Below are positions 1 through 11,428 of a stretch of DNA of 23,396 nt, piece after piece. Below the pieces are notes generated by a model, which searched no databases, had not been told where the DNA came from, and saw only the letters and a program-made list of their open reading frames with translations. A program made the translations under genes and the position numbers. Positions within the stretch are counted from its first letter, which is position 1. Each line of letters starts with the position of its first letter. Where the stretch lies: positions 1 to 23,396 of IMG/VR virus record IMGVR_UViG_3300033153_007612. The stretch is one strand, 5' to 3'. This stretch comes from a virus.

Positions 1-3000
1 CTGATGTCGTCATCGACGATTCGGTCACGCCGCCCATCGAAGATCGCACGAAGTTCACGTTGCCGGCTCAGCCCACCACGGGTAACGGTCGTGACACACC
101 GCTTGGCACCGAAACTTTCCTGTCGATCAGCAACAATCGTCGGGACCTTCCCACGAACAACCCCAATCTCGTCAAGGCGTACTGGGGCTTCGGGATCCAA
201 GACGCTCTCCAGCGTGGTCAAGTCAACGTCACTGAGGTGAACGGGGTCGAGATCACCCTCGAGAACTCGGTGCCCGTGGGTGCTGAGGTCTTCGCGACCT
301 TCTGGTACAACATCCTGGTCGATCAGGAGTACACGGTCGAAGTCCAGGTCAGCGGTCCTTCCGGTATTGGGTCCTACTTCCTGTTCGACAGCAACGGGAA
401 TCCGATCTACACGCCGAAGTTCGGTTCCAAGGGACCGGCGCTCACTGGCGTCACGATCCAGTTCCCCTCGGGCTCCGAGATCACCCCTGATGTCCACTTC
501 GAGGGCTCGACGGATGGTCCGGTCGAGGAGACCGTCACCGTTCAGTTCGCGGATAAGGACGCCACGATCGCCAAGTTCACGGTGGCCGGCTCCGGCCCCT
601 ACGCTTTCGTGGAAAGCGAGTCCGATCGGGCTCGGTTCACCATCGACAGCACTTTGCTGGCGGGTGGCACGGCAGGTATCGATCTGTCGGCCCCACACGG
701 CATCTCCGGTCTCGGTTTCAACGCGTCTCTTTTGAGCAATGAGATCGAGTACACCGACGATTCGGGCAAGACCACGTACGACATCCTGGCCGGGATCAAC
801 GACAACGTGTCGTTCACGGTGGACAACGTCGTCGTCACGGTCAACGTGCCTGGTCAAACGGGTGTCGATGCGGATGCGTACGTCGAGGCGATCAACGCCG
901 AGGCGAAACTCACCGGCAACGAAGCCTACTACGATGGTGTGACTCGGTTCCTTGGAACCACGATCATCACGGCCGGCGAGTACGACCAGCTCGTGTTCAA
1001 CTACACGGGCATCACGAACGGTTCGACCGGTCCTGTCACGGCGACCATCGCACCGGGAACGTATGTTTCGCCGAACTTCTTGGCGGCTGCCATTGACACC
1101 GCCATCGACACCGCCATCGCGGCCCTCCCGGCTGCGTACGACGGCATCGATGTGACTGCCACGGCAAACGCTGATGGTGGCATTCGCTTCACCTTCCAAG
1201 GTGCAGACACCGACCTCGGTACGTTCGCCACGGGCACCGTCACGAACGTCGGGTCCCTCCTGAACGACACCATTGCGATCGGCGGCATCACGCTCACCGG
1301 TTCGCTGGGCGTCACTCCGGGTGGCCTGAACTACGACACCGGACAGGCTCGAGGCACCGTCATTGCGACGGGTGTCCAGTCGGGTGACACGATCACCATC
1401 GACACGACTGCTGTTGGTGGCGGACCTGTGGTCCTGACCGCGGCTGGCGCTCAGACCCCTGGTGGTTTGAACTTCAACGAGGGCACCGCTGCAACGGGCA
1501 GCCTCACGGTGGTTGGTCCGGTTCCGGGCGACACCATCGTGGTGGACGGCGTCACTTTGACCGCACTGGGAGCTCAGACTCCTGGTGGTTTCAATTTCGA
1601 CGAAGGAACGCGAGCCACTGGCACCGCTACCCTGGCTTCGGTCGAGTACGGTGACACGATCACCGTCGATACCTCCGCAGTGGGCGGTGGTCCCGTCATC
1701 CTGACGGCCAGCAACGTGCTGACCCCAGGCGGTCTCGATTTCAACGTCGGTACATCGGCCCTCGCCGACTTCATGACGATGGGTGTTCGTCCCGAAACCA
1801 TCGCTCCGTTCCCGGTAACTCCGGCGGACACGGTGACCATCGATGGCGCACCGCTGACTCCGGTCGAAGGTGCTCGTACCCCCGGTTCGGATGATTTCGA
1901 TGCGGGTACGCGTTCGCTCGGTGCCATGGTCGTCGTGGTTGATTCGTTGGCTCCCAGCACGGGTGTCCTCTACGGTGACACGATCACCATCGGAGGCATC
2001 GCACTCACGGCTGACGATGTGACCACTCCTGGTGGTCTCAACTTCGACGCTGGTACTCAGGCTACTGACACCTTGGTCGTGACGGCAGCTCCCTCGAGCG
2101 CAACCGTCACCATCGACACCGGTTCGGCCAACGGTGGGCCATTCCCGCTGACTCCGGCGGGCGGTCCTCGTATCTCTGGTGCGAATGACTACGACGAGAC
2201 GCTCGGTACCACGGCAGCCATCGCGGCTGAGATTGCTTCGGCAATCAACGATCCGGCCAATGCCTTCGCGACGTTCATGAGCGCCGCGGTGGGCCCCGGT
2301 CCTTCGGATGTGACGTTGACCTGGACGGTTCCGGGCGCGTTTGCCAACGTCATCACCAACATGAGCTCTGACGGAACCGTGACCACCGCTGGTGGTTTCG
2401 GAGCCACGATCGCTGGCGTGGGAACCGAGATCACCACGGCCACGGCCATCGTGGCCGCGATCTCGGATGTCCTCAACGGACTCACGGGTCTCGTTCAGGC
2501 ACACAACACGGCCGGTGCTTCGGCCACAGTTGATATTCAGGCCCTTACGCCTGGGCTTGCAGGCGACTCGATCAGCACGGTTTCGACCGCGCCGGCTCGA
2601 ATCACCTGGGGTGCCGCAACATTGGCGGGTGGTATCGGTGACGATCTCACTGCGGCAACGGACGCCACGGCTGCCATCAACGATGTTGCCAATGCCTTCG
2701 ACACGATTACCACCGCAGTTGCGGTTGGCAACACCGTGAATCTCACGGCGGTCATTCCCGGAGCGGCCGGCAATTTGCTCACCCTGAGCACCACGGCAGC
2801 GGGTCGGTTCGTCCTTTCGGGCGCGTCCTTCACCGGTGGTGTGGGCGACGACATCTCCGCAGCCACGAGTTTGGTGGCGGCGATCTTGGATGCCGCCAAC
2901 GGTCTCGGTGGTGTCCTCGCTGATAACACGGGTGGCACCTCGGCTACGGTCGATATCGATGCGTTCACACCAGGTACGGTGGGCAACGGCATCACGATGG

Positions 3001-6000
3001 CAGAGTCCACCGGTGGTGTTCGCATCGCACTTTCCGCGGCCACCCTGTTGGGTGGTATCGGAGACAACACGACCGTGGCGCTCTCCGTCGCGGCTGCGAT
3101 CAACGATGCTGGTAACGGCATCGTCGTCACCGTGACTGCGCTGGCAGCGATCAACGTGGTGACGATGACCGCGGTGACGCCAGGGAACTCCGGCAACATC
3201 ATCGATACGACGAGTTCGACCTCGATCCGTCTGATCATGGCTGGCCTCACCCTCGCGGGTGGTGTGGGCACAGACTTCTCGGTGGCCAGTTCGATCGCTG
3301 CGGCGGTCAACGATTTGGGCAACGGGTTGGCAGCCGACATCTCGGCGAACAACGCAGGTGGGACCTCCACCATCGTGACCATCTGGGCTGACGTGCCTGG
3401 TGTTCTGGGCAACGGCATCACGATGGCCAGCTCCAATCCCGTCCGTCTCCCGCTTTCGGGTGCGACGTTCGGCGGCGGTTTGACCGACGTGGGTGTGGGT
3501 ACAACCATCGTGACGGCGATCACCGATCCCCTCAACGGGCTCGATGTTCTGGTCACGGCGGACAACAGCTCGGGCACTTCGTCCACGGTGGACATCACCG
3601 CGGCCGATCCTGGGCCCCAGGGGAACTTCATCACGCTGATCTCCAGCGATGGGGTCCGTCTCCCGGTCTCCGCAGCTACCCTCACGGGTGGTTCCGGTCT
3701 CGGCGGCGGTATCTTCGAGTTCCTCGATGCTGCCAGTTTGGGAGCGGATTTCGCGGTTCTCGCGGGGATCTCCACGGATGCGCTTCCGAGTCAGGAGCAG
3801 ACGAAGATCACCGATGGTGATGTGGCTCGTCGGTTCTCGGTATCGGGTACCAGCGGTCGTCTGATTTACGACCGTATCATCCTGCGCAACCGCATCACTC
3901 CCGGAACCGGTTCCATGCGGCCCGAGAGTCAGGTGGCTCAGACCAACTTGATCGTCCAGGGTACGAACGCACAGACCGAGACGGGTCTGACTTCTCTGGC
4001 CTTTGGTCAGGCGGGTATCGGAGCGGTCCTGCAGCCGGCGTCACTTGTTGGCGAGACTGGCTTCGCGGACGGTCAGGTGCCTTCGGGAACGTACACGGAT
4101 GACCGTGATGGTCAGCCGCAGGTTCAGTTCTACGGCGCCAACGGGTTGAACCCACAGAACAACGTGTTCAAGTTCAACATCGATGGGACTCCCATCACCG
4201 TGGTGTTCACGGACGCATTCGGTGCCGCGATTCCTGCTGCGGGCTCGGCAACGGTTCCGCTCGGGCCCATCGGGGTTCCCAACACGATCATGGAGCAGAT
4301 CCAGACCGCCATCGTCGGTTCGGGTCTGGCAGCTTCGGCCATCGCGCCCGAGGGTGCAGGCTTCCGTCTCGTGTCGCAGGTGGTGGACACCACTTCGGCG
4401 GTCACGATCGATGGCGGAAACGCTAACGATTCTCTCGGGTTCTCCGAGGACGCCACGGCGAATCGGGAGACCGTAGAGGTCGAGAAGGTGGCATCGGCTC
4501 TGATGATGCACCACAGCTCGAGCATCAACGGTGTCCTCCTCGACTACCAGAGCCCCGACGCGACCTGGTTCGCGGATCAGGCTCTGGCCGCCAAGGTGGT
4601 GGACTCGAGCAACGCGGAGTTCCTGTTCATCGAGTCACAGGCCAACAACATCGTCGGTCTGGGCGCCTCCTCGAACATCGTGTTCTTGGACGCCACTTCG
4701 GACTCATGGCTCCGTACGGGCACCGGGTTGCTCGAACAAGCGGGTGCAGGCGCGTCCGGTGAGACGGGCTTCCAGGGGTTCTACGTCACAAGCTCGGATC
4801 CCATCGACGGGTCCGGTTCGGCCAACACCTCCTGCCTCAACAACGGCGTGGGTCAGGACGGCGTCCTCGGTCAGAGCTACCGCGATGTGGTTACCGGTCT
4901 GATTTTCACCATCCTCGAGCGTGATGGTGGGGCTGATTACCCGACGGGTGCAGGCGCTTACTTCACTTTCGAGGTGCGCAAACTGGTGACGACGGATGCC
5001 AACGTGCCGATCAACTCGATCCCCGGCGTGGAGGTCACCGTGGCCAACACTGAGGGGTCCACGATCCCGACGGGCGACACGGCCATCATCGAGACCTTCG
5101 ATCGTGGCGGTCAGGAGCCGGCGGTGGGTGATTCGTACTTCATCACCTACAACTACTCCAAGACGGAAGCTGATTTCCAGACGCTGCTTTTCACCAGCCA
5201 ACGGGTGGTGGAGCGGAACTACGGTCAGATCAACCCGGACAACCCGGTTTCTCTGGCAGCGTTCCTGGCGTTCTTGAACGGCGCGGTGGTCATCGCCATC
5301 AATCAGGTGCCCAAGATTCCTGGTAGCAACCAGGCAAGCACCGCTTCGTACATCGATGCGCTCAACGACCTTCGTGGGCCGCTGCCTGGCGGTTCGGTGC
5401 TCGATACCATCACCCCGCTCAAGGGTGATGACATCGACCTGTTCTTTGCCCTGTCGAACCACTGCGACGTTCAGTCCAGTATTCGCTTCCGGGCCGAGCG
5501 TACGGGCATCATCGGAGTCTCGTCGGGCACTCAGCCGACGGACGTTGGTGGGATTGCGCAGCAGATCCAGAACACCCGCATCCGGCTGGTGTACCCGGAT
5601 ATCGTGACGCTCACGATCCAGGATGCTCTCGGCAACGACAAGCAGTTCCTGGTGGACGGCACGTTCCTGGCTGCGGCCATGGCTGCCAACCGGGCGAGCC
5701 CGAACATCGATGTGGCAACCCCGTGGACACGGGCACGCATTGTTGGGTTCGATGCTCTGGCACGCACGTTGGATGCGGTGGAACAGAACCAGATCGCTGT
5801 CCAGGGTGTCACCATCCTTGACCAGCGGGGCACCGTGATTCGGGTCCGTCAGGGCCTCACCACGGACCCGTCGAACATTCTGACGAAGCTGCCGACCGTG
5901 ATCACCATCGCGGACGAGGTGCAGCGTGCGTCTCGACGGGACCTCGATCGCTTCGTTGGCATCAAGTTCCTGCCGGGCGTTCTGTCCCAAATCGAGGGTC

Positions 6001-6179
6001 AGCTTTCGACAACGATGAAGGCGCTCAAGAACCAGGAAATCATCACGGCGTTCACCGGGATCCAGGCTCGTACGACCAACGATCCCACCATCGTCGAGGT
6101 GGAAGCATTCTACCAGCCTGTATTTCCCCTTTTATACATCGTTATAACTTTCAATCTTCGCAGTAATCTGGGCGCCTAG
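1..6179 (+). CDS. Contractile tail sheath protein, very large, 5' end outside window
   Basis: Polymerises around the tail tube and contracts to drive it into the host. The frame is open from base 3 with no stop upstream, so the gene begins before the window; a TTG at 60 is only an internal codon. About 2,058 residues are visible, against roughly 400-900 for common sheaths. The C-terminal part (about 5160-6179) looks like a sheath: a helical segment with RVVERNYGQI, a late region ending IKFLPGVLSQIEGQL, and the final strand-like segment VEVEAFYQPVFPLLYIVI, which in known sheaths joins neighbouring subunits. The middle is a huge insertion of two tandem repeat families (1254-2200 and 2208-3713), followed by beta-rich segments, one with NDSLGFS at about 4428-4448. 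The tube gene downstream supports the call. The last 20 sense codons (6117-6176) use A/T-ending codons unlike the rest, suggesting replacement of the 3' end. Sheath identity is family recognition; the insert's function is unknown. Confidence 0.9.
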   Translation, partial: DVVIDDSVTPPIEDRTKFTLPAQPTTGNGRDTPLGTETFLSISNNRRDLPTNNPNLVKAYWGFGIQDALQRGQVNVTEVNGVEITLENSVPVGAEVFATFWYNILVDQEYTVEVQVSGPSGIGSYFLFDSNGNPIYTPKFGSKGPALTGVTIQFPSGSEITPDVHFEGSTDGPVEETVTVQFADKDATIAKFTVAGSGPYAFVESESDRARFTIDSTLLAGGTAGIDLSAPHGISGLGFNASLLSNEIEYTDDSGKTTYDILAGINDNVSFTVDNVVVTVNVPGQTGVDADAYVEAINAEAKLTGNEAYYDGVTRFLGTTIITAGEYDQLVFNYTGITNGSTGPVTATIAPGTYVSPNFLAAAIDTAIDTAIAALPAAYDGIDVTATANADGGIRFTFQGADTDLGTFATGTVTNVGSLLNDTIAIGGITLTGSLGVTPGGLNYDTGQARGTVIATGVQSGDTITIDTTAVGGGPVVLTAAGAQTPGGLNFNEGTAATGSLTVVGPVPGDTIVVDGVTLTALGAQTPGGFNFDEGTRATGTATLASVEYGDTITVDTSAVGGGPVILTASNVLTPGGLDFNVGTSALADFMTMGVRPETIAPFPVTPADTVTIDGAPLTPVEGARTPGSDDFDAGTRSLGAMVVVVDSLAPSTGVLYGDTITIGGIALTADDVTTPGGLNFDAGTQATDTLVVTAAPSSATVTIDTGSANGGPFPLTPAGGPRISGANDYDETLGTTAAIAAEIASAINDPANAFATFMSAAVGPGPSDVTLTWTVPGAFANVITNMSSDGTVTTAGGFGATIAGVGTEITTATAIVAAISDVLNGLTGLVQAHNTAGASATVDIQALTPGLAGDSISTVSTAPARITWGAATLAGGIGDDLTAATDATAAINDVANAFDTITTAVAVGNTVNLTAVIPGAAGNLLTLSTTAAGRFVLSGASFTGGVGDDISAATSLVAAILDAANGLGGVLADNTGGTSATVDIDAFTPGTVGNGITMAESTGGVRIALSAATLLGGIGDNTTVALSVAAAINDAGNGIVVTVTALAAINVVTMTAVTPGNSGNIIDTTSSTSIRLIMAGLTLAGGVGTDFSVASSIAAAVNDLGNGLAADISANNAGGTSTIVTIWADVPGVLGNGITMASSNPVRLPLSGATFGGGLTDVGVGTTIVTAITDPLNGLDVLVTADNSSGTSSTVDITAADPGPQGNFITLISSDGVRLPVSAATLTGGSGLGGGIFEFLDAASLGADFAVLAGISTDALPSQEQTKITDGDVARRFSVSGTSGRLIYDRIILRNRITPGTGSMRPESQVAQTNLIVQGTNAQTETGLTSLAFGQAGIGAVLQPASLVGETGFADGQVPSGTYTDDRDGQPQVQFYGANGLNPQNNVFKFNIDGTPITVVFTDAFGAAIPAAGSATVPLGPIGVPNTIMEQIQTAIVGSGLAASAIAPEGAGFRLVSQVVDTTSAVTIDGGNANDSLGFSEDATANRETVEVEKVASALMMHHSSSINGVLLDYQSPDATWFADQALAAKVVDSSNAEFLFIESQANNIVGLGASSNIVFLDATSDSWLRTGTGLLEQAGAGASGETGFQGFYVTSSDPIDGSGSANTSCLNNGVGQDGVLGQSYRDVVTGLIFTILERDGGADYPTGAGAYFTFEVRKLVTTDANVPINSIPGVEVTVANTEGSTIPTGDTAIIETFDRGGQEPAVGDSYFITYNYSKTEADFQTLLFTSQRVVERNYGQINPDNPVSLAAFLAFLNGAVVIAINQVPKIPGSNQASTASYIDALNDLRGPLPGGSVLDTITPLKGDDIDLFFALSNHCDVQSSIRFRAERTGIIGVSSGTQPTDVGGIAQQIQNTRIRLVYPDIVTLTIQDALGNDKQFLVDGTFLAAAMAANRASPNIDVATPWTRARIVGFDALARTLDAVEQNQIAVQGVTILDQRGTVIRVRQGLTTDPSNILTKLPTVITIADEVQRASRRDLDRFVGIKFLPGVLSQIEGQLSTTMKALKNQEIITAFTGIQARTTNDPTIVEVEAFYQPVFPLLYIVITFNLRSNLGA
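1254..2200 (+). repeat. Tandem TPGG-type repeats within the sheath gene
   Basis: About seven degenerate in-frame copies, each combining a GDTITIDG-like strand, LTAxG, and a TPGGLNFDxGT motif followed by ATGT. The TPGG-like motifs start near 1314, 1455, 1575, 1722, 1878 and 2025, with a decayed copy (RISGANDYDE) near 2169. Copies are about 120-155 bases apart, some with a GGGP insertion after the DT strand. They are diverged at DNA level, so this is an old protein-domain expansion and not recent slippage. They probably form small beta units on the sheath surface; that is inference. Confidence 0.75.
2208..3713 (+). repeat. Seven tandem ~70-residue repeats in the sheath, arranged partly as dimers
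   Basis: Copies start near 2208, 2433, 2649, 2856, 3072, 3279 and 3492, and the last ends near 3713. Each runs: an alanine-rich helix-like start (AAINDxxNG type), a beta region, a PGxxGNxI turn, then LSGATLxGGxGDD. Copies 2, 4, 6 and 7 carry an SATVDI-type core. Copies 3 and 5 carry a shorter NVVTMTAV-type core. The distances 2433-2856 and 2856-3279 are both exactly 423 bases, so the expansion went partly by two-copy units of 141 residues. Confidence 0.8.
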
Positions 6180-6193
6180 GCGACCAGAGGTTG

Positions 6194-6224
6194 CACGGGT
6201 CCTACTGATAGGGTAGGACCCGTG
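6194..6224 (+). promoter_or_regulatory. 12-bp hairpin sequestering the RBS of the nuclease-methyltransferase gene
   Basis: Bases 6194-6205 (CACGGGTCCTAC) are perfectly complementary to 6213-6224, leaving a 7-base loop. The AGGA at 6215-6218, the only Shine-Dalgarno-like sequence for the GTG start at 6226, lies inside the 3' arm. In mRNA reading through from the sheath gene the ribosome site would be paired. T4 intron-borne homing endonuclease genes are known to be silenced by such hairpins. No run of T follows, so a terminator is less likely. Confidence 0.6.
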
Positions 6225-6225
6225 G

Positions 6226-8823
6226 GTGTCCCCGGAGCTTCGTCAAAAGATTCTTGACGCGTTCAACACCGATGATGCTGTGGCTGTAGCGGCCAAGCAC
6301 ATCGGTGTTGGTCGTGATCGGGTTACTCGAACATGGAAAGAGGTGTTTGGGAAAGACAGCGTTCGAGAGCGCGCAAATCGTCTCCGTGGATTAGCTAAAT
6401 CCAAGACGGGGAACGCAGCAGATCCTAAAGTTCGAGCTAAGGCGTTGAGTGCGTTTTCGACGGAAGAACCCATGAAGAAAATGGCGCTTCGGCTAGGGGT
6501 GCACTATGCGAAAATTCGAGAATGGTGGGGAGCGGAACACGGGGACCAAAACGTGCGGGCACGAGGATCCCGGTTACAAAAAATCCGGTCGGCTGAAAAC
6601 GCTAAGAAGCATAAAGGACAGAAACATCAAGTCCGAAAGGTCGAGGTTCCTTGTGAGACTTGCGGCACTGACTTGGAGGTGTCTGCGATTTCCGCGGCCA
6701 AACGTCACCACTTCTTCTGTGCTCCTTGTGATCAAAAGCGTCGGGGAGCGGATACCGCGTGTCCTATTTGTGGTTTGATGTGCGTTGGTTCTCGAGGGCT
6801 AACCGCCCATCTCCACTCTGCTCAAGATGAAGAACATCAAGCATGGAGGAGTGAGAGAGCAGAAGAGAAGCTGGGAGACCTTGGTACGGATCACGTGTCT
6901 TGTCGAGAGTGTGGGCATCGTGCGAAGAACTTGTGGAAACATCTTGAAACTGCCCACGACATGACCCCTTCTTCTTATGTTCGCAAATGGCCTGGGGCTT
7001 GCTGGCGCATTGAACGTGTCGAACAGAAGCGGTTAAGCGCCTCCTTAGAGGGCCGTGCGAAAAATGACTTTTGGAAAGGAGCGCAGAAAGAGGTGAACTG
7101 TCCAACTTGTGGTCAGCAGCTTGAGGTCTCTTTATTTGCGGGGTCCCTTCATGACTTGCGTTGTGATGACTGCAAAGCAGAAGACGAACTCATCTTGTGG
7201 AAAGGGAAAAAGGAGCCTGCTGACTATGTGTCTTGTCGAGAGTGTGGGCACCGTGCTGAGAACTTGACTTCGCATCTACGATCTGCCCATGATTTTGAGC
7301 GCTACTGCAAAGAACACCCAGAAGCGCCTTTTACAGCTTTGCGAGCAGGACAAAGGTTTATCCCTGCAAACAAGCTGGTATTGACGGAACTCCAGCTTCG
7401 CCCTTTTCGGGATAAAGAGGGACGCGTGATCGCAGCGGCAGCCGCTAAGGCATTGAATTGTGCGCAGTGGCAAATTCGCCGTAACTGTGCGGACCTAGGT
7501 CTGAAAACACGTAGTAGGTTGGGTTGGCAGAAATTAGTTTTGGATAACGCTGCCTCGGCCCTAGGAACCCAGTATGAGTCGGAGTGGACAGACCCTCGAA
7601 TTTTCAATGAGATGACCGGGCGCCTATTTCATTTTGATGGGTATTTTTCTGCGAAGTCTCTCATTCTTGAGGCCCATGGGGAACAGCACTTCTACTTCAT
7701 CGAGTCTTGGCATAAAACCCATGAGGAGTTTGAGCGTCTTCAAGAACTTGACCGGTTCAAAATTGCCCGAGCTCGGAAGTTAGGTTACGAGGTCAAGGTG
7801 GTCCGATATCAGGACCCTGTTCATGACGTGCGTTTCTGGAAAAAGCTTTTTGGGGGAGACGCTTCTTTGTGGGCCAACAAAAACCCGGAGTTACGCGCGC
7901 AGGACATTGACCACGTGTTTCAACGATTGAGGGAGGAGGGGTTCCCTAAGCTTGAGCCTTCCAAAAAAACCAAAGCGGAATTCACCAAGTTAAGCTCACA
8001 GACGATGCACGTAGACCCCGAGGGGTTTGTTCGACCGTACACGTATCGCGGAACTACGGTGTGTGCTTCGTTTTTCCCGAACCGTGCGGATGCCCGGTAC
8101 CGGGGAGCGCTTAGCCTACGAGAAGCTTGGCAAGACGATACCAAGCTGAAATCTGCAATCAAGGTTCAGCTCAATGCGGGGCACCCAACAACCGGTCCAA
8201 GGGTTTTGAAGGCTCTGATGATGCTTTGCCGTACTCCTTCCGTGTTCCGTCCTGGGGTCACCAAGTTCGTATGTGATCGTTATGGCGTTCCTGGAGGCGT
8301 GATGTGGGACCCGTGTGCCGGATACGGGGGTCGTCTTTTTGGTGTGATGGCCTCGGGTATGGGCCTTTACATCGGAACGGATGTGGAGCCTGCTACTATC
8401 GAAGGCAACCGTGCGCTGGCGGAAGCACTGAGTTGTTCAGAGAAGTGCAAATTGGTGCATGCCCGCGCGGAGACTTTTGACCCAAAGGTGCCTTTGGATT
8501 TGGTGTTTACGTCCCCTCCGTATTTCGATTTGGAGGTGTATGGAGAGAGTTCAAAAAAAGCGCTCTCTTACTCGAACATTAACGACTGGGTGGGCGCTTT
8601 TCTGGCGCCTCTAATCAAGACGGCTTTTTCACGGTTGCGTTCAGGGGGGCATTTGGTTTTGAATCTTCCAGCCAAGCCTTTGGATGGCCTTGTTTTGGCG
8701 GATGAGGCCGTAAGGCTTGCCGCGGCGATTGGGTTTTCGATCCAACCACCTGTGTACATGCCTGTGCGTAGGTTGAGATCGAAAGCTCTTCGGGCAGACC
8801 CTCTTTTGGTGTTTCGTCGGTGA
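6226..8823 (+). CDS. Zinc-finger / Vsr-like endonuclease / DNA methyltransferase fusion
   Basis: Predicted to bind, cut and methylate DNA in one 865-residue chain. Residues 1-125 hold two similar helix-turn-helix units (PELRQKILDAF and PKVRAKALSAF). Residues 143-355 hold zinc-type clusters: C143/C146/C165/C168, C179/C182/H195, C226/C229/H239/H244, C292/C295/C313/C316 and C337/C340/H350/H355; the third and fifth resemble Ros/MucR fingers. Residues 450-515 look like a Vsr-like/EDxHD endonuclease core: E451/E453, FDGYF (D471), LEAHGEQHF (E482, H484, E486, H488) and D509xxK512. Residues 690-800 are a methyltransferase: motif I DPCAGYGGR at 695-703 and TSPPYFD at 762-768, typical of N4-cytosine or N6-adenine enzymes, with motif I first. 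GTG 6226 is the only start after an in-frame TAG at 6214, and the first repeat begins at once. Lower GC than its neighbours suggests transfer. Target and modified base cannot be read from sequence. Confidence 0.8.
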   Translation: MSPELRQKILDAFNTDDAVAVAAKHIGVGRDRVTRTWKEVFGKDSVRERANRLRGLAKSKTGNAADPKVRAKALSAFSTEEPMKKMALRLGVHYAKIREWWGAEHGDQNVRARGSRLQKIRSAENAKKHKGQKHQVRKVEVPCETCGTDLEVSAISAAKRHHFFCAPCDQKRRGADTACPICGLMCVGSRGLTAHLHSAQDEEHQAWRSERAEEKLGDLGTDHVSCRECGHRAKNLWKHLETAHDMTPSSYVRKWPGACWRIERVEQKRLSASLEGRAKNDFWKGAQKEVNCPTCGQQLEVSLFAGSLHDLRCDDCKAEDELILWKGKKEPADYVSCRECGHRAENLTSHLRSAHDFERYCKEHPEAPFTALRAGQRFIPANKLVLTELQLRPFRDKEGRVIAAAAAKALNCAQWQIRRNCADLGLKTRSRLGWQKLVLDNAASALGTQYESEWTDPRIFNEMTGRLFHFDGYFSAKSLILEAHGEQHFYFIESWHKTHEEFERLQELDRFKIARARKLGYEVKVVRYQDPVHDVRFWKKLFGGDASLWANKNPELRAQDIDHVFQRLREEGFPKLEPSKKTKAEFTKLSSQTMHVDPEGFVRPYTYRGTTVCASFFPNRADARYRGALSLREAWQDDTKLKSAIKVQLNAGHPTTGPRVLKALMMLCRTPSVFRPGVTKFVCDRYGVPGGVMWDPCAGYGGRLFGVMASGMGLYIGTDVEPATIEGNRALAEALSCSEKCKLVHARAETFDPKVPLDLVFTSPPYFDLEVYGESSKKALSYSNINDWVGAFLAPLIKTAFSRLRSGGHLVLNLPAKPLDGLVLADEAVRLAAAIGFSIQPPVYMPVRRLRSKALRADPLLVFRR
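6895..7250 (+). repeat. Duplicated zinc-finger module with 23-base identical core
   Basis: Bases 6895-6917 and 7228-7250 are identical over 23 bases, 333 bases (111 codons) apart and in frame. Both encode VSCRECGH, the start of a Ros/MucR-like finger. Each is preceded by a CxTCGxxLEVS plus CxxC cluster, so the whole finger set seems to have been duplicated as a module fairly recently. Confidence 0.7.
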
Positions 8824-9002
8824 AGTTGCGAGGTCTCTTTTTCACGAATTCCTTTCGGTAGGGTCCGCGCATTGCGCGCTTGTGATTGGCTTCGTTTGTC
8901 TCCCTATAGCCAGCGCAATTAGTAGAGGGACCAAATTAGTCCCATTTTGCGCGGTTCTGGATCCCCGAGTTGGGGCCAGCCGTTTTACCGAAAGGAAAGC
9001 AC
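8824..9002 (+). other. Leader between nuclease-methyltransferase and tube genes
   Basis: No gene seen. It holds a short CGCGC/GCGCG hairpin (8866-8870 with 8874-8878) and a nested structure: GCGCAA (8913-8918) pairs with TTGCGC (8947-8952) around an inner GGGAC/GTCCC stem (8927-8931 with 8939-8943). It ends in a purine-rich ribosome site, GAAAGGAAA, just before the tube ATG at 9003. The right edge of the inserted element should lie here. I could not identify a promoter with confidence. Confidence 0.45.
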
Positions 9003-9794
9003 ATGGCCAATACAGACAATGCGCCTGCCAATGGCGTCCAGGGTTCCAGTTACATCTACGATTTCGGCACGTCGCCCCAGACGCGTACTGCCGTTTCTCA
9101 GAAGGTCCGCCTTCTGACCCCCGCGTACGGCACCGACGCCAAACTCCTGTTCCAGATGGGCGTTCTGAGTTCGTTCACGCCGAACGAGACTCGTACGATC
9201 GACACTCTTCGTGGAATTGGCTTCGGCGACATGATCGCCGAGCTCGTACCGTCCGTGACCGAGGCCATGACGGCCGGGTTCGAGCGCGCGCTCCTCTACC
9301 TCTCGAACCTGTGGCAGGCCACTGGTTACGCTGGTGGTGCGAGTGGACCGGTTCGATCCCTTCGACATCACCGTTGGCCCTTCGACATCGAGCAGCAGCT
9401 CGTGTTTTCGACGGTGGCTGATCTGGACCTCACGGGTCAACCGGGTGAGGGCTTCAACGGCGGCGGCGGCACTTTTGACGGTGGCGTCAAGTCGATCAAA
9501 TACCCCACGGTCACCAACGACCCCCAGGGCGTCCCTGGAGACGCACGTAGCCACACGGCGATCATCACGCTCTACGAGACCTGCTGGTTCAACTCCTGGT
9601 CTCTGACGAACCTGAGCCGCGACACGGGCATGCTGATGGAGACCGGCGATGTGACGATCTCTGACGTGCACGATTTCTCCTCCGAGTACGGCGAATTCCT
9701 GGCGACAGGCAACGATCCGTCGATCAACCAGCTTGGCTCTGTGCGCTTCAACAATGGCTCTGGCCGTGGCGGTTCTGACTTCATCACTTCCTAG
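9003..9794 (+). CDS. Tail tube protein
   Basis: Builds the inner tube through which DNA leaves the virion, inside the sheath. The 263-residue product is slightly larger than the common tube size (about 150-200 residues). The ATG at 9003 follows a purine-rich ribosome site and a plausible long leader; an upstream in-frame start at 8970 has no such site. Features seen: an early beta segment, a helix near residues 65-100 (FGDMIAELVPSVTEAMTAGF), and the segment SLRHHRWPFDIEQQLVFS at about residues 118-135, which recalls the LRHH..PFDI region of known myovirus tube proteins. A glycine-rich stretch (GFNGGGGTFDGG) follows, then a long strand-rich C-terminus. Position directly after the sheath is the standard arrangement; the inserted element has separated them by about 2.8 kb. 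Codon use matches the structural genes. Confidence 0.85.
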   Translation: MANTDNAPANGVQGSSYIYDFGTSPQTRTAVSQKVRLLTPAYGTDAKLLFQMGVLSSFTPNETRTIDTLRGIGFGDMIAELVPSVTEAMTAGFERALLYLSNLWQATGYAGGASGPVRSLRHHRWPFDIEQQLVFSTVADLDLTGQPGEGFNGGGGTFDGGVKSIKYPTVTNDPQGVPGDARSHTAIITLYETCWFNSWSLTNLSRDTGMLMETGDVTISDVHDFSSEYGEFLATGNDPSINQLGSVRFNNGSGRGGSDFITS

Positions 9795-9918: not shown

Positions 9919-10032
9919 GTGAAAAAGATGGGCACGAACGGACCTTTCGAGCTGTTCCCCCTTCCTCCCTTCGGGGACGGTCAAATGAAGATGAAAATGG
10001 GATCGAACACACATATCAAGTTTGCGCTGTGA
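9919..10032 (+). CDS. Possible small protein, 34-37 residues
   Basis: The frame reads from GTG 9919 or ATG 9928 to TGA 10030-10032. The ATG form gives MGTNGPFELFPLPPF followed by GDGQMKMKMGSN and THIKFAL. Codons (ACG AAC, TTC GAG CTG) resemble those of the structural genes, and the ORF fills the gap between tube and chaperone genes. Against it: no clear Shine-Dalgarno sequence and very short length. It could be a small virion or assembly protein, or chance. No family recognised. Confidence 0.35.
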   Translation: MKKMGTNGPFELFPLPPFGDGQMKMKMGSNTHIKFAL

Positions 10033-10050
10033 CCCCGACCCACCGACATG

Positions 10051-10066
10051 CTCCACACCAGTGGAG
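10051..10066 (+). promoter_or_regulatory. Hairpin covering the RBS of the first chaperone-position gene
   Basis: CTCCAC (10051-10056) pairs perfectly with GTGGAG (10061-10066) around ACCA. The 3' arm contains the GGAG that serves ATG 10073, six bases downstream. A paired ribosome site would lower expression of this assembly protein relative to the tube gene upstream. A stem of only 6 bp may open easily. Confidence 0.5.
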
Positions 10067-10072
10067 ACAGTC

Positions 10073-11428
10073 ATGGTCAATCTCAAGGCTCTAGAAGCCG
10101 CCATCAATCGAGTCGAAAACGTCCGCCAGCACGAACTTACGTTCGAGGTGGATGGTCAGAAAATTACGCTTCGTATCCTTCGTCCTGAAGAAGAGGCCGA
10201 GGTTCAGAAGTACGCGCAAGTCGCGTTGGAAACAGTCGGTCCAACAGAGACCCCAGATCAGGGGGCGTACATGGATCTCATGAACCGGATGCGCCAAGCC
10301 ACGCTTGGGTTCTCGATCATGCGTATCGGGGATCTTGAGTTACGCAAAGTTGAGTTCATCGAGACCGAGGAGCGGGACAACGCCGGCAACCCTATTTCGC
10401 TCCCCAAGTGGGAAGCGATCACCGGCCTCGTGAAAGAGTGGGGGCAGCACATGCTCAGCGAAGTGTCGCAGCGGTACGGCGACCTTGTGGACCTGGCTGA
10501 AATTCATGCCGCCAAGGTGGTGAAGTACGACGCTGTGGACTTCGATGCGGAGATCGATCGGGTCGAGGCGCGACTCAAGGACCTCCGTAGTGCCAGGACC
10601 AAGCGGGACGGCAAAGTTGCTGGAGGTCCAGTGCCGCAGCAGCAGCCGCCACAGCAGCAGCAGCAGCAGCAGCAGCAGCCTCCACAGCAGGCCGCTCCTC
10701 CGCAGCCCCCGCAGCCACAGGCGCAGGCTCCTCAGAACCCACAGGCTCCTCAGAACCCACAGGCTCCTCAGAACCCACAGGGGCGCTCCTCTTCGATTCC
10801 ACAAGCCGCCGCGCCTCGGGAGCGGGAGCCTCAGCAAACGGCTCCTGAGAACCCCCAGGAGCAGCGGGCACCCCAGTACCACGATGAGGCCGGCATCATG
10901 CTTCCGAACGAGGGCGACTCGTTCTTTGACCCGTCGGATCCTGGTCAGGCGATGGAGATCGAGGCTCGTCGGCAGGCGATGTTGCATCAACAGCACGTCG
11001 CTCGACAGCGGGCTCAGGAGGAGCAGGAACGGCTGCGTCGTGAGGCTGGGATCCCCTCGGAGCAGGAGATCGCCGCCCAGGTCGCAGAAGGGCAGCGTGA
11101 AGCCAACCGTCCCAAGGCTGTGGATTTGTCCGGGCCTTCGCCTGGGGGTGCTGTAGGCAGTTTGCGTCAAGCTGCCAACCTCCAAAATGCGGTTCCGGAT
11201 ACTCGGGGCGGCGCAGTGCGACCTGGCCGTCCACAACGTGCACAGCCCCAAGCTGCTGGAGGAGGACAGCCGGCCCAGCTTCATGGAAAGCCTGTCTACA
11301 AGATGCCGACTCAGACGTTGGAGCGGCCGGAGGATGCACGCCAGCACGGGCAACCCGCAGCGGGGCCTGTGAAGATGAACCCCACCTCTGGGGCACGTAA
11401 CCCGAACTATCGCCCCAAGGGGTCCTAG
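10073..11428 (+). CDS. Tail assembly chaperone-position protein with Pro/Gln-rich tail
   Basis: Probably a non-virion chaperone that binds the tape measure during tail assembly; inferred from its place between tube and tape measure genes and its make-up, as no conserved motif proves it. The product has 451 residues. ATG 10073 is preceded by GGAG at 10063-10066; the longer in-frame start at 10022 lacks a ribosome site. Residues 1-180 look folded: a short strand domain (LTFEVDGQKITLRILRPEEE) then helices with IGDLELRKVEFI and WEAITGLVKEWGQHML. Residues about 185-400 are disordered and rich in Pro, Gln and Ala, including nine Gln at 194-202 and three QAPQNP repeats at 218-235. A charged helical stretch near residues 300-345 (RQAMLHQQHVARQRAQEEQE) may be a coiled coil. 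It ends TAG, and the next gene is in the same frame three bases later, which allows readthrough. Confidence 0.55.
   Translation: MVNLKALEAAINRVENVRQHELTFEVDGQKITLRILRPEEEAEVQKYAQVALETVGPTETPDQGAYMDLMNRMRQATLGFSIMRIGDLELRKVEFIETEERDNAGNPISLPKWEAITGLVKEWGQHMLSEVSQRYGDLVDLAEIHAAKVVKYDAVDFDAEIDRVEARLKDLRSARTKRDGKVAGGPVPQQQPPQQQQQQQQQPPQQAAPPQPPQPQAQAPQNPQAPQNPQAPQNPQGRSSSIPQAAAPREREPQQTAPENPQEQRAPQYHDEAGIMLPNEGDSFFDPSDPGQAMEIEARRQAMLHQQHVARQRAQEEQERLRREAGIPSEQEIAAQVAEGQREANRPKAVDLSGPSPGGAVGSLRQAANLQNAVPDTRGGAVRPGRPQRAQPQAAGGGQPAQLHGKPVYKMPTQTLERPEDARQHGQPAAGPVKMNPTSGARNPNYRPKGS
10652..10678 (+). repeat. (CAG)9 trinucleotide tract
   Basis: Nine perfect CAG units encode Gln 194-202 of the chaperone-position protein. 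Flanking Gln codons are also CAG, which suggests slippage growth. Confidence 0.9.
10724..10777 (+). repeat. Three perfect 18-base tandem repeats
   Basis: The unit CAGGCTCCTCAGAACCCA occurs three times without mismatch and encodes QAPQNP. Perfect identity indicates recent expansion in a disordered region. Confidence 0.9.

Follow-up and report, generated by a model that had tools for sequence, protein, structure and literature searches.

A silently recoded tail sheath gene end that moves with a putative homing nuclease in phages

In relatives of the phage analysed here, a nuclease gene and the recoded 3′ end of the adjoining tail sheath gene move as one unit, and the recoded tail is silent and sharply bounded. 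This was seen in relatives and not in the window itself, i.e. the whole stretch of 23,396 nucleotides under analysis (positions 1 to 23,396 of the IMG/VR virus record IMGVR_UViG_3300033153_007612). The unit is probably a free-standing homing-endonuclease cassette whose sheath end is recoded and resistant to cleavage, where cutting, target position and resistance are inferred. An initial annotation of the window, made from the sequence alone, had proposed that an incoming element brought a synonymous copy of the last sheath codons along with a nuclease, keeping the protein and removing the nuclease target. In its sequence-testable parts this interpretation is supported, with the demonstration coming from relatives.

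The sheath gene (3–6,179, + strand; its 5′ end lies outside the window) belongs to PHROG 2839 (phrog_2839, E 2.6e-29 over the C-terminal 549 aa). Among its last 20 sense codons (6,117–6,176), 12 end in A or T, compared with six of the preceding 29 codons and 25% across the remainder of the gene. When the other 20-codon windows of the gene are considered, 12 A/T-ending codons are reached in four of 2,018 and never exceeded. TTA (6,132) and ATA (6,144) occur once each in the 2,058 sheath codons seen, a count that excludes the 5′ end of the gene, and both lie inside the tail. The codon anomaly is thus genuine and beyond chance, and the counts given in the initial annotation (12/20 in the tail, 6/29 before it, TTA and ATA unique to the tail) held on recount. 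Its statement that the protein ends like a normal sheath held as well, as the end, PVFPLLYIVITFNLRSNLGA, matches that of the nuclease-free relative L004 except for the final residue. On the DNA level, five of the 19 same-residue codons among the last 20 are identical between the window and L004, versus 44–78% of codons in the fifteen 20-codon bins upstream. Identical A/T-rich codons in a relative without the insert would have refuted the proposal; since the end codons of L004 (CCG GTG TTC CCG CTG CTG TAC ATC GTC ATC ACG) are not A/T-rich, that refutation failed. As a side observation, the sheath protein of the window (3–6,179) exceeds 2,050 residues, reaches up to 2,488 residues in relatives, and has Gly/Thr-rich repeat-like stretches 5′ of the conserved sheath part.

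The recoded 3′ end, comprising the last 20 codons and the stop (6,117–6,179, + strand), is inferred to be the left part of the cassette, a boundary that was seen directly in relatives only. An inverted repeat with 12-bp arms and a 7-nt loop (6,194–6,224, + strand) sits just 5′ of the nuclease start; we infer that it could be an operator or a ribosome-site hairpin. It is followed by the nuclease-methyltransferase gene (6,226–8,823, + strand, GTG start, 865 aa) and the right end of the cassette (8,824–8,866, + strand), with backbone similarity to the nuclease-free L004 resuming at 8,866. The next backbone gene (8,970–9,794, + strand) is 89% identical in L004 and has no family match; by position alone, it is likely to encode the tail tube. 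The nuclease gene is a separate ORF that leaves the sheath frame unbroken and is flanked by conserved genes, with no intron or intein setting. An Rfam search over 5,500–9,500 gave nothing at gathering score, its single match being a chance one (E 0.75). Several features of the neighbourhood may be recorded in passing. L004 has an S-adenosylmethionine decarboxylase gene (7,745–8,143) at the spot matching 8,824–8,969 of the window, a gap that is too short for such a gene, and in L005 one is located 3′ of the nuclease (10,300–10,761). The window ORF at 10,022–11,428, which lies after the putative tube gene and before the following ORF, contains a Gln/Pro-rich low-complexity stretch.

The 865-residue protein combines several Cys/His modules, a nuclease domain and a methyltransferase domain in one chain. 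A ROS/MUCR-type zinc finger spans residues 209–255 (6,850–6,990, + strand; PF05443, E 1.4e-11; 2jsp), the predicted nuclease domain residues 432–554 (7,519–7,887, + strand), and the DNA methyltransferase match residues 666–805 (8,221–8,640, + strand), including DPCAGYGGR at 695–703 and TSPPY at 762–766. The nuclease domain model, folded from 24 sequences (mean pLDDT 85), resembles Vsr (1cw0; Z 10.1, rmsd 2.7, 109 aligned) and the homing endonuclease I-Bth0305I (3r3p; Z 8.6, rmsd 3.8, 92 aligned); two T. gondii mitoribosome entries rank between them (Z 9.4 and 8.9), and the top Foldseek match is 1vsr (E 1.1e-3). It is important to note that Z scores below 8 may reflect merely a common arrangement; 1cw0 and 3r3p both exceed that value. 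Accordingly, we are confident, on the basis of a predicted model, that the domain has the Vsr/I-Bth0305I (EDxHD) fold. D471, E482, H488 and K512 do not vary among the 24 aligned of 29 eligible sequences, without a residue-by-residue mapping onto known active sites. The union of nuclease and methyltransferase in one chain recalls type IIG restriction-modification enzymes; other family members lack the methyltransferase, and in many sheath-linked relatives without it the profile matches stop around position 512 of 829. In L018 the element is split: a gene that by eye resembles a C5-cytosine methyltransferase (7,332–8,408, i.e. 1,282–2,358 past the sheath stop) separates a zinc-finger ORF from a nuclease-methyltransferase ORF, as a nested or modular second methyltransferase.

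In 50,697 phage records, 26 match the window protein, and the 20 listed match only the C-terminal part from residue 564 onward; the nuclease region of L083 has no match in 50,697 phage records. No annotated nuclease adjoins the tail sheath genes of Tunturi_5 and phage G, a profile search found none next to the tail sheath of LR745208, and a search of genome contigs yielded no sheath relative. Weak nuclease matches (L120–L176) occur in a different setting, with the sheath motif in 0 of 57, and were set aside.

Atypical sheath tails are tied to the presence of the nuclease in two distant sheath groups. The analysis used 80 of 160 sheath loci and 80 of 188 nuclease loci, and 80 of 92 loci in a later collection. 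Clusters were classed as nuclease-bearing if a member of the nuclease family lies directly downstream of the sheath gene and as empty if none is there, and codons were scored by their surprisal under the codon use of their own gene. In the first group, 81 loci gave 61 clusters (97% at the nucleotide level), namely 23 nuclease-bearing, 29 empty, among which L066 was counted despite a weak nuclease match, and nine unknown with less than 1.5 kb of downstream sequence. The second group comprises 85 loci, three of them without a stop codon; the other 82 gave 66 clusters (29 nuclease-bearing, 32 empty, two with a remnant, three unknown). Between the two groups the sheath bodies are 44–46% identical in the pairs printed.

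In the first group, the best of 336 sliding 16-codon windows is the tail, with a surprisal of 0.64 in nuclease-bearing versus 0.07 in empty clusters (p = 5.8e-6). The window starting at the proline of PxFPLLY also separates the two classes (p = 4.3e-4), whereas windows in the body show a mean difference of −0.008 (sd 0.038), with no p below 0.012. The score of the last 18 codons falls within the top 5% of the gene's own windows, those overlapping the tail included, in 19 of 23 nuclease-bearing and six of 29 empty clusters. In the second group, the same applies to 24 of 29 nuclease-bearing clusters, five of 32 empty ones and both remnant loci. A held-out replication with 22 new nuclease-bearing clusters of this group (seven previously seen were dropped) against its 32 empties confirmed the difference (p = 8e-7). 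According to the per-codon view, the excess sets in at about the PxFPLLY proline and continues to the stop codon; this analysis omitted one of the 23 first-group nuclease clusters. As the cluster tests are not fully independent, we corrected for kinship with 35 phylogenetically independent pairs of nuclease-bearing and empty clusters, 29 of which point in the predicted direction (sign test p = 5.8e-5, Wilcoxon p = 2.5e-7). These pairs include the already known L231/L232, for which L231 was added by hand as empty because it had clustered with L232, and the remnant-bearing L055 and L066 were treated as empties. Approached from the nuclease side, all 23 loci of close nuclease relatives have the sheath-end motif, ten of these contigs not stemming from the sheath search, and in 14 of 14 loci inspected singly the motif lies upstream of the nuclease.

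The exceptions deserve a closer look. Nuclease-bearing clusters outside the top 5% number four of 23 in the first group (L020, L030, L089 and, narrowly, L025) and five of 29 in the second (L204, L180 and, narrowly, L105, L238, L250). Conversely, six of 29 first-group empties (L066, L055, L069, L042, L076, L075) and five of 32 second-group empties (L205, L251, L217, L198, L235) lie within it. The two highest-scoring of the 29 first-group empties, L066 and L055, likely hold nuclease remnants (E 2.9e-5 and, weakly, 0.011). For the remaining nine (L069, L042, L076, L075, L205, L251, L217, L198, L235) no clear nuclease remnant was found; older scars, other nucleases or noise may account for them. 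Apparent nuclease remnants 3′ of the sheath stop, with the recoded tail still in place, were noted in L055, L066, L182 and L228. Such loci could be scars that outlasted the element. Six of the 35 pairs are misfits (L056/L055, L234/L202, L089/L071, L082/L066, L080/L076, L078/L069), and two of these have a remnant locus as their empty member. L204 differs from its sister L203 at 13 sites in the last 75 nt versus two to eight per upstream bin. In the 92% pair L106/L179, the last 75-nt bin has 15 differences and the next one 16; because the second bin diverges as much as the last, the boundary of the recoding is not always sharp.

Near-natural experiments among the relatives reveal that the tail moves with the nuclease. 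The empty L231 and the nuclease-bearing L232 show no difference over 5,944 nt and then 14 in the last 79 nt of the sheath gene; 12 of these fall within sense codons and are all synonymous, and the stop changes from TAG to TGA. Thereafter, 2,381 nt in L232 face 59 nt in L231 until similarity returns at the start of the next gene. The pair, relatives in the same nuclease clade, therefore represents a presence/absence polymorphism in otherwise near-identical DNA. L232 shares its tail, nuclease and following genes with L103 (one difference in 3,369 nt), while the sheath bodies of the two differ at 325 of 2,325 nt (ungapped, about 14%; about 10% over the 1.1 kb adjoining the tail). L229 and L103, on the other hand, have nearly the same sheath (two differences in 2,174 nt), yet their nucleases are not the same and the last 75 nt differ at 17 sites. 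With one cassette on two sheaths and two cassettes on one sheath, it becomes clear that bodies and cassettes assort freely and that the tail follows the cassette. Thus, the proposed arrival of an element that carries a nuclease and a synonymous sheath end, and leaves the protein unchanged, held in these relatives (L231/L232, L103/L232, L229/L103), and it is backed by the tail signature across both sheath groups; for the window itself, no near-identical pair with and without the nuclease was found that would show the insertion.

Cassette sequence takes over between −72 and −67 from the gene end in L232 as well as in L103. This breakpoint assumes that the site at −79 is a private change of L231; otherwise the switch in L232 lies between −109 and −67. 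Flank co-conversion is evident from L103/L232 and L229/L103. L232 remains L103-like to its right end, beyond the cassette, and its right breakpoint is not visible; it is therefore a recombinant whose left breakpoint lies at the recoded tail, rather than the product of insertion alone. Conceivably, a break near the left edge that was repaired from a donor would yield a recombinant of this type. One could object that the pattern is an assembly or sampling artefact, as every nuclease locus is metagenomic and the key pairs depend on single contigs. However, L232 and L103 are contigs from different samples and have the −72/−67 switch in common, a stretch too short for a k-mer join (up to 28 nt if the −79 site is not read as a private change), and the statistics span 113 nuclease-bearing or empty clusters in two sheath groups. 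An artefact is therefore highly improbable.

A more serious rival is passive co-conversion, in which the tail is merely a donor flank of different codon usage that was copied along with the nuclease and has no protective role. Homing indeed brings co-conversion of flanks (PMC2988022), and nuclease genes of the window's clade have a lower GC3 than the sheath genes next to them. Yet, six tail codons, CTT TTA TAC ATC GTT ATA (6,129–6,146, + strand), a candidate footprint of the altered target, are identical in the window, L026 and L024, whereas their nuclease genes agree across all three at 14.6% of 437 same-residue codons, with no more than three identical codons in a row among 870. The corresponding share in the sheath bodies is 47% of 245 same-residue codons. 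As the nuclease codons have diverged and the tail has not, the comparison speaks against a passive flank, unless the tail was re-copied later. Donor-wide A/T richness as the whole cause is also disfavoured, because over 32 loci the GC3 of the nuclease tracks that of the sheath body (r = 0.81) and the tail does so less (r = 0.42). Overall, we regard passive co-conversion as unlikely.

The sharing of tail codons goes by nuclease clade and is not general across nuclease bearers. A CTT TTR tail is present in 10 of the 11 members of the window's nuclease clade (the exception is L030), compared with seven of 37 other nuclease-bearing clusters and five of 61 empties (p = 6e-8 for the clade versus empties), and seven of the 11 clade members have sheaths of the second, distant group. 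Other clades bear their own silent versions, such as CCT TTG CTN TAT ATT GTG ATC in L022 and L025 or TCA AGT TTG TAG in L067, L082 and L083. With the sheath controlled for, tail and nuclease correlate only weakly across 32 of 33 nucleases (L117 was omitted; partial Mantel r = 0.19, permutation p = 0.002). Over all 16 core positions, tail codon identity is not raised in nuclease-bearing pairs (0.38 versus 0.48 in the body); in nuclease-free pairs the values are 0.44 and 0.40. The palindrome GTTATAAC at 6,141–6,148 was considered as a methylation site, but the tails of more distant clade members lack it. Taken together, the tail is probably DNA kept under selection with its own nuclease. Cleavage resistance would be the simplest reason for its retention and is likely the right one; removal of the nuclease target, as initially claimed, is the best-supported reason, yet it is inferred, as there are no cutting data. 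Exact retention of six codons exceeds what mere target avoidance would demand, so that an added role, e.g. in binding or repair pairing, is possible.

Two further rivals assign the tail another role or none. It could be a hidden control element for the nuclease gene (a promoter, ribosome or hairpin signal), since an A/T-rich motif is kept in the window's clade just 5′ of that gene. But tails differ between nuclease clades, and by a simple consensus score a promoter-like value of at least 9 is reached in the tails of two of 57 nuclease loci versus two of 61 empties; we thus consider this idea very improbable. With the same kind of score, the intergenic stretch reaches at least 9 in 21 of 57 nuclease loci versus six of 61 empties. 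Inverted repeats, often near a TTGACA-like box, were observed 5′ of the nuclease start in many nuclease loci. Repeats with arms of at least 10 occur at a similar frequency behind empty sheaths (63% versus 57%), and only the promoter-like part is enriched. Overlapping frames were rejected as well: in 33 of 33 loci a stop past the sheath stop closes the nuclease frame; the frame is open in L200.

Alternatively, the fused methyltransferase could protect the DNA, as in type IIG-like restriction-modification, with the recoding being incidental. In favour of this scenario, nuclease and methyltransferase are joined in the window protein, and L020, L030 and L035 bear a methyltransferase and have weakly recoded tails. 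Against it, relatives without a methyltransferase are still recoded (e.g. L067, 1.49; L025, 1.06), and L017, L024 and L026 have a methyltransferase together with some of the most strongly recoded tails. Protection by methylation alone hence seems very unlikely.

We return to the reading that we prefer, the homing cassette with a resistant sheath end. In this proposal, the unit would consist of the recoded last 20 or so sheath codons, its own intergenic control region and the Vsr/EDxHD nuclease with zinc-finger modules, which in the window's clade is fused to a methyltransferase. The nuclease may be expressed from the intergenic promoter-like stretch. During mixed infection, it would cut the sheath 3′ end of a cassette-less phage in or near the conserved PVFPLLYI codons, and repair from the donor would copy the cassette into the cut phage. 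The recoded end would restore an identical protein and no longer match the target, so that donor and convert would both be resistant with the essential gene intact. For the window, the codon signature, the clade-specific tail codons and the predicted fold have been established, and enzymatic activity is inferred; the absence of cutting data and of a near-identical empty partner counts against the reading. A bolder version, towards which we lean by a narrow margin, is that these elements are natural home-and-rescue drives, a large and old family of phage cassettes competing for one essential gene end, and that the sheath 3′ end is a multi-allelic immunity locus among co-infecting phages. Each clade's silent rewriting of the sheath would then block the clade's own nuclease and perhaps those of rivals.

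How a free-standing homing nuclease escapes cutting itself while sparing the neighbouring gene is a standing question. A likely answer is found here in DNA, as a short and silent change, brought by the cassette, to the best-conserved codons of an essential gene in dozens of lineages. Pairs of target and resistant sequences, L231/L232 and L004/window, are available for a direct cutting comparison, and the codon-usage signature could help to seek the targets of other phage nucleases, including lost ones.

Among known systems, the nuclease fold is shared with Vsr (1cw0) and I-Bth0305I (3r3p), but in the phage cassette zinc fingers flank the nuclease, some clades have a methyltransferase, and there is no intron. 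The Seg and Mob nucleases of T-even phages are likewise encoded by intron-free genes amid conserved genes and moved by repair with flank co-conversion (PMC2988022). In contrast to the cassette, they are of the GIY-YIG or HNH type and cut hundreds to thousands of bp off the gene (PMC2988022), and the passages of PMC2988022 considered do not mention a rewritten gene end. Barth 2023 (PMC10448857) similarly describes nuclease genes that neighbour essential genes of phages, influence recombination and lie at boundaries of genetic exchange; these belong, however, to the T5orf172 and IPA-HNH families, and the terms 'Vsr', 'tail sheath' and 'synonymous' are absent from its main text.

The initial annotation knew of no described homing element with a recoded sheath end; a precedent for the idea is known outside phages, from fungal mitochondria (PMC3630166). 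Mobile ORFs in Glomus atp6, atp9, cox2 and nad3 and in Allomyces atp6 replace the C-terminal coding end (PMC3630166), and like the phage cassette they pair an endonuclease gene with an in-frame replacement end. They differ in being mitochondrial, in using LAGLIDADG or GIY-YIG nucleases and in their inserted ends of 51–238 nt (PMC3630166), whereas the cassette has a Vsr/EDxHD nuclease and about 20 codons that are silent in the pairs seen, and addresses one target gene in many lineages. The inserted fungal atp6 end shares 63.5% DNA and 91% protein identity with the native one and is therefore not wholly synonymous (PMC3630166). The fungal elements also keep the displaced native end downstream (PMC3630166), but none was found in the phage cassettes: a peptide pattern detected no second sheath end 3′ of the nuclease, and blastn-short returned just two 14-nt matches (E 0.048), which fall at a single position in L017. 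In the open-access literature searched (titles and abstract openings), no homing cassette of phages that brings a rewritten end of a gene was described; as subscription papers are largely missing, this is no proof. Homing elements with replacement ends are thus known from fungi, and the synonymous rescue end, the nuclease architecture, the host group and the target are likely new, as is the test of the tail-nuclease link across many lineages. In engineered home-and-rescue gene drives the rescue copy is recoded. Like the cassette, such drives home into an essential gene, but they are man-made and based on CRISPR/Cas9 in Drosophila (PMC7968924); the phage cassette may be seen as their natural counterpart.
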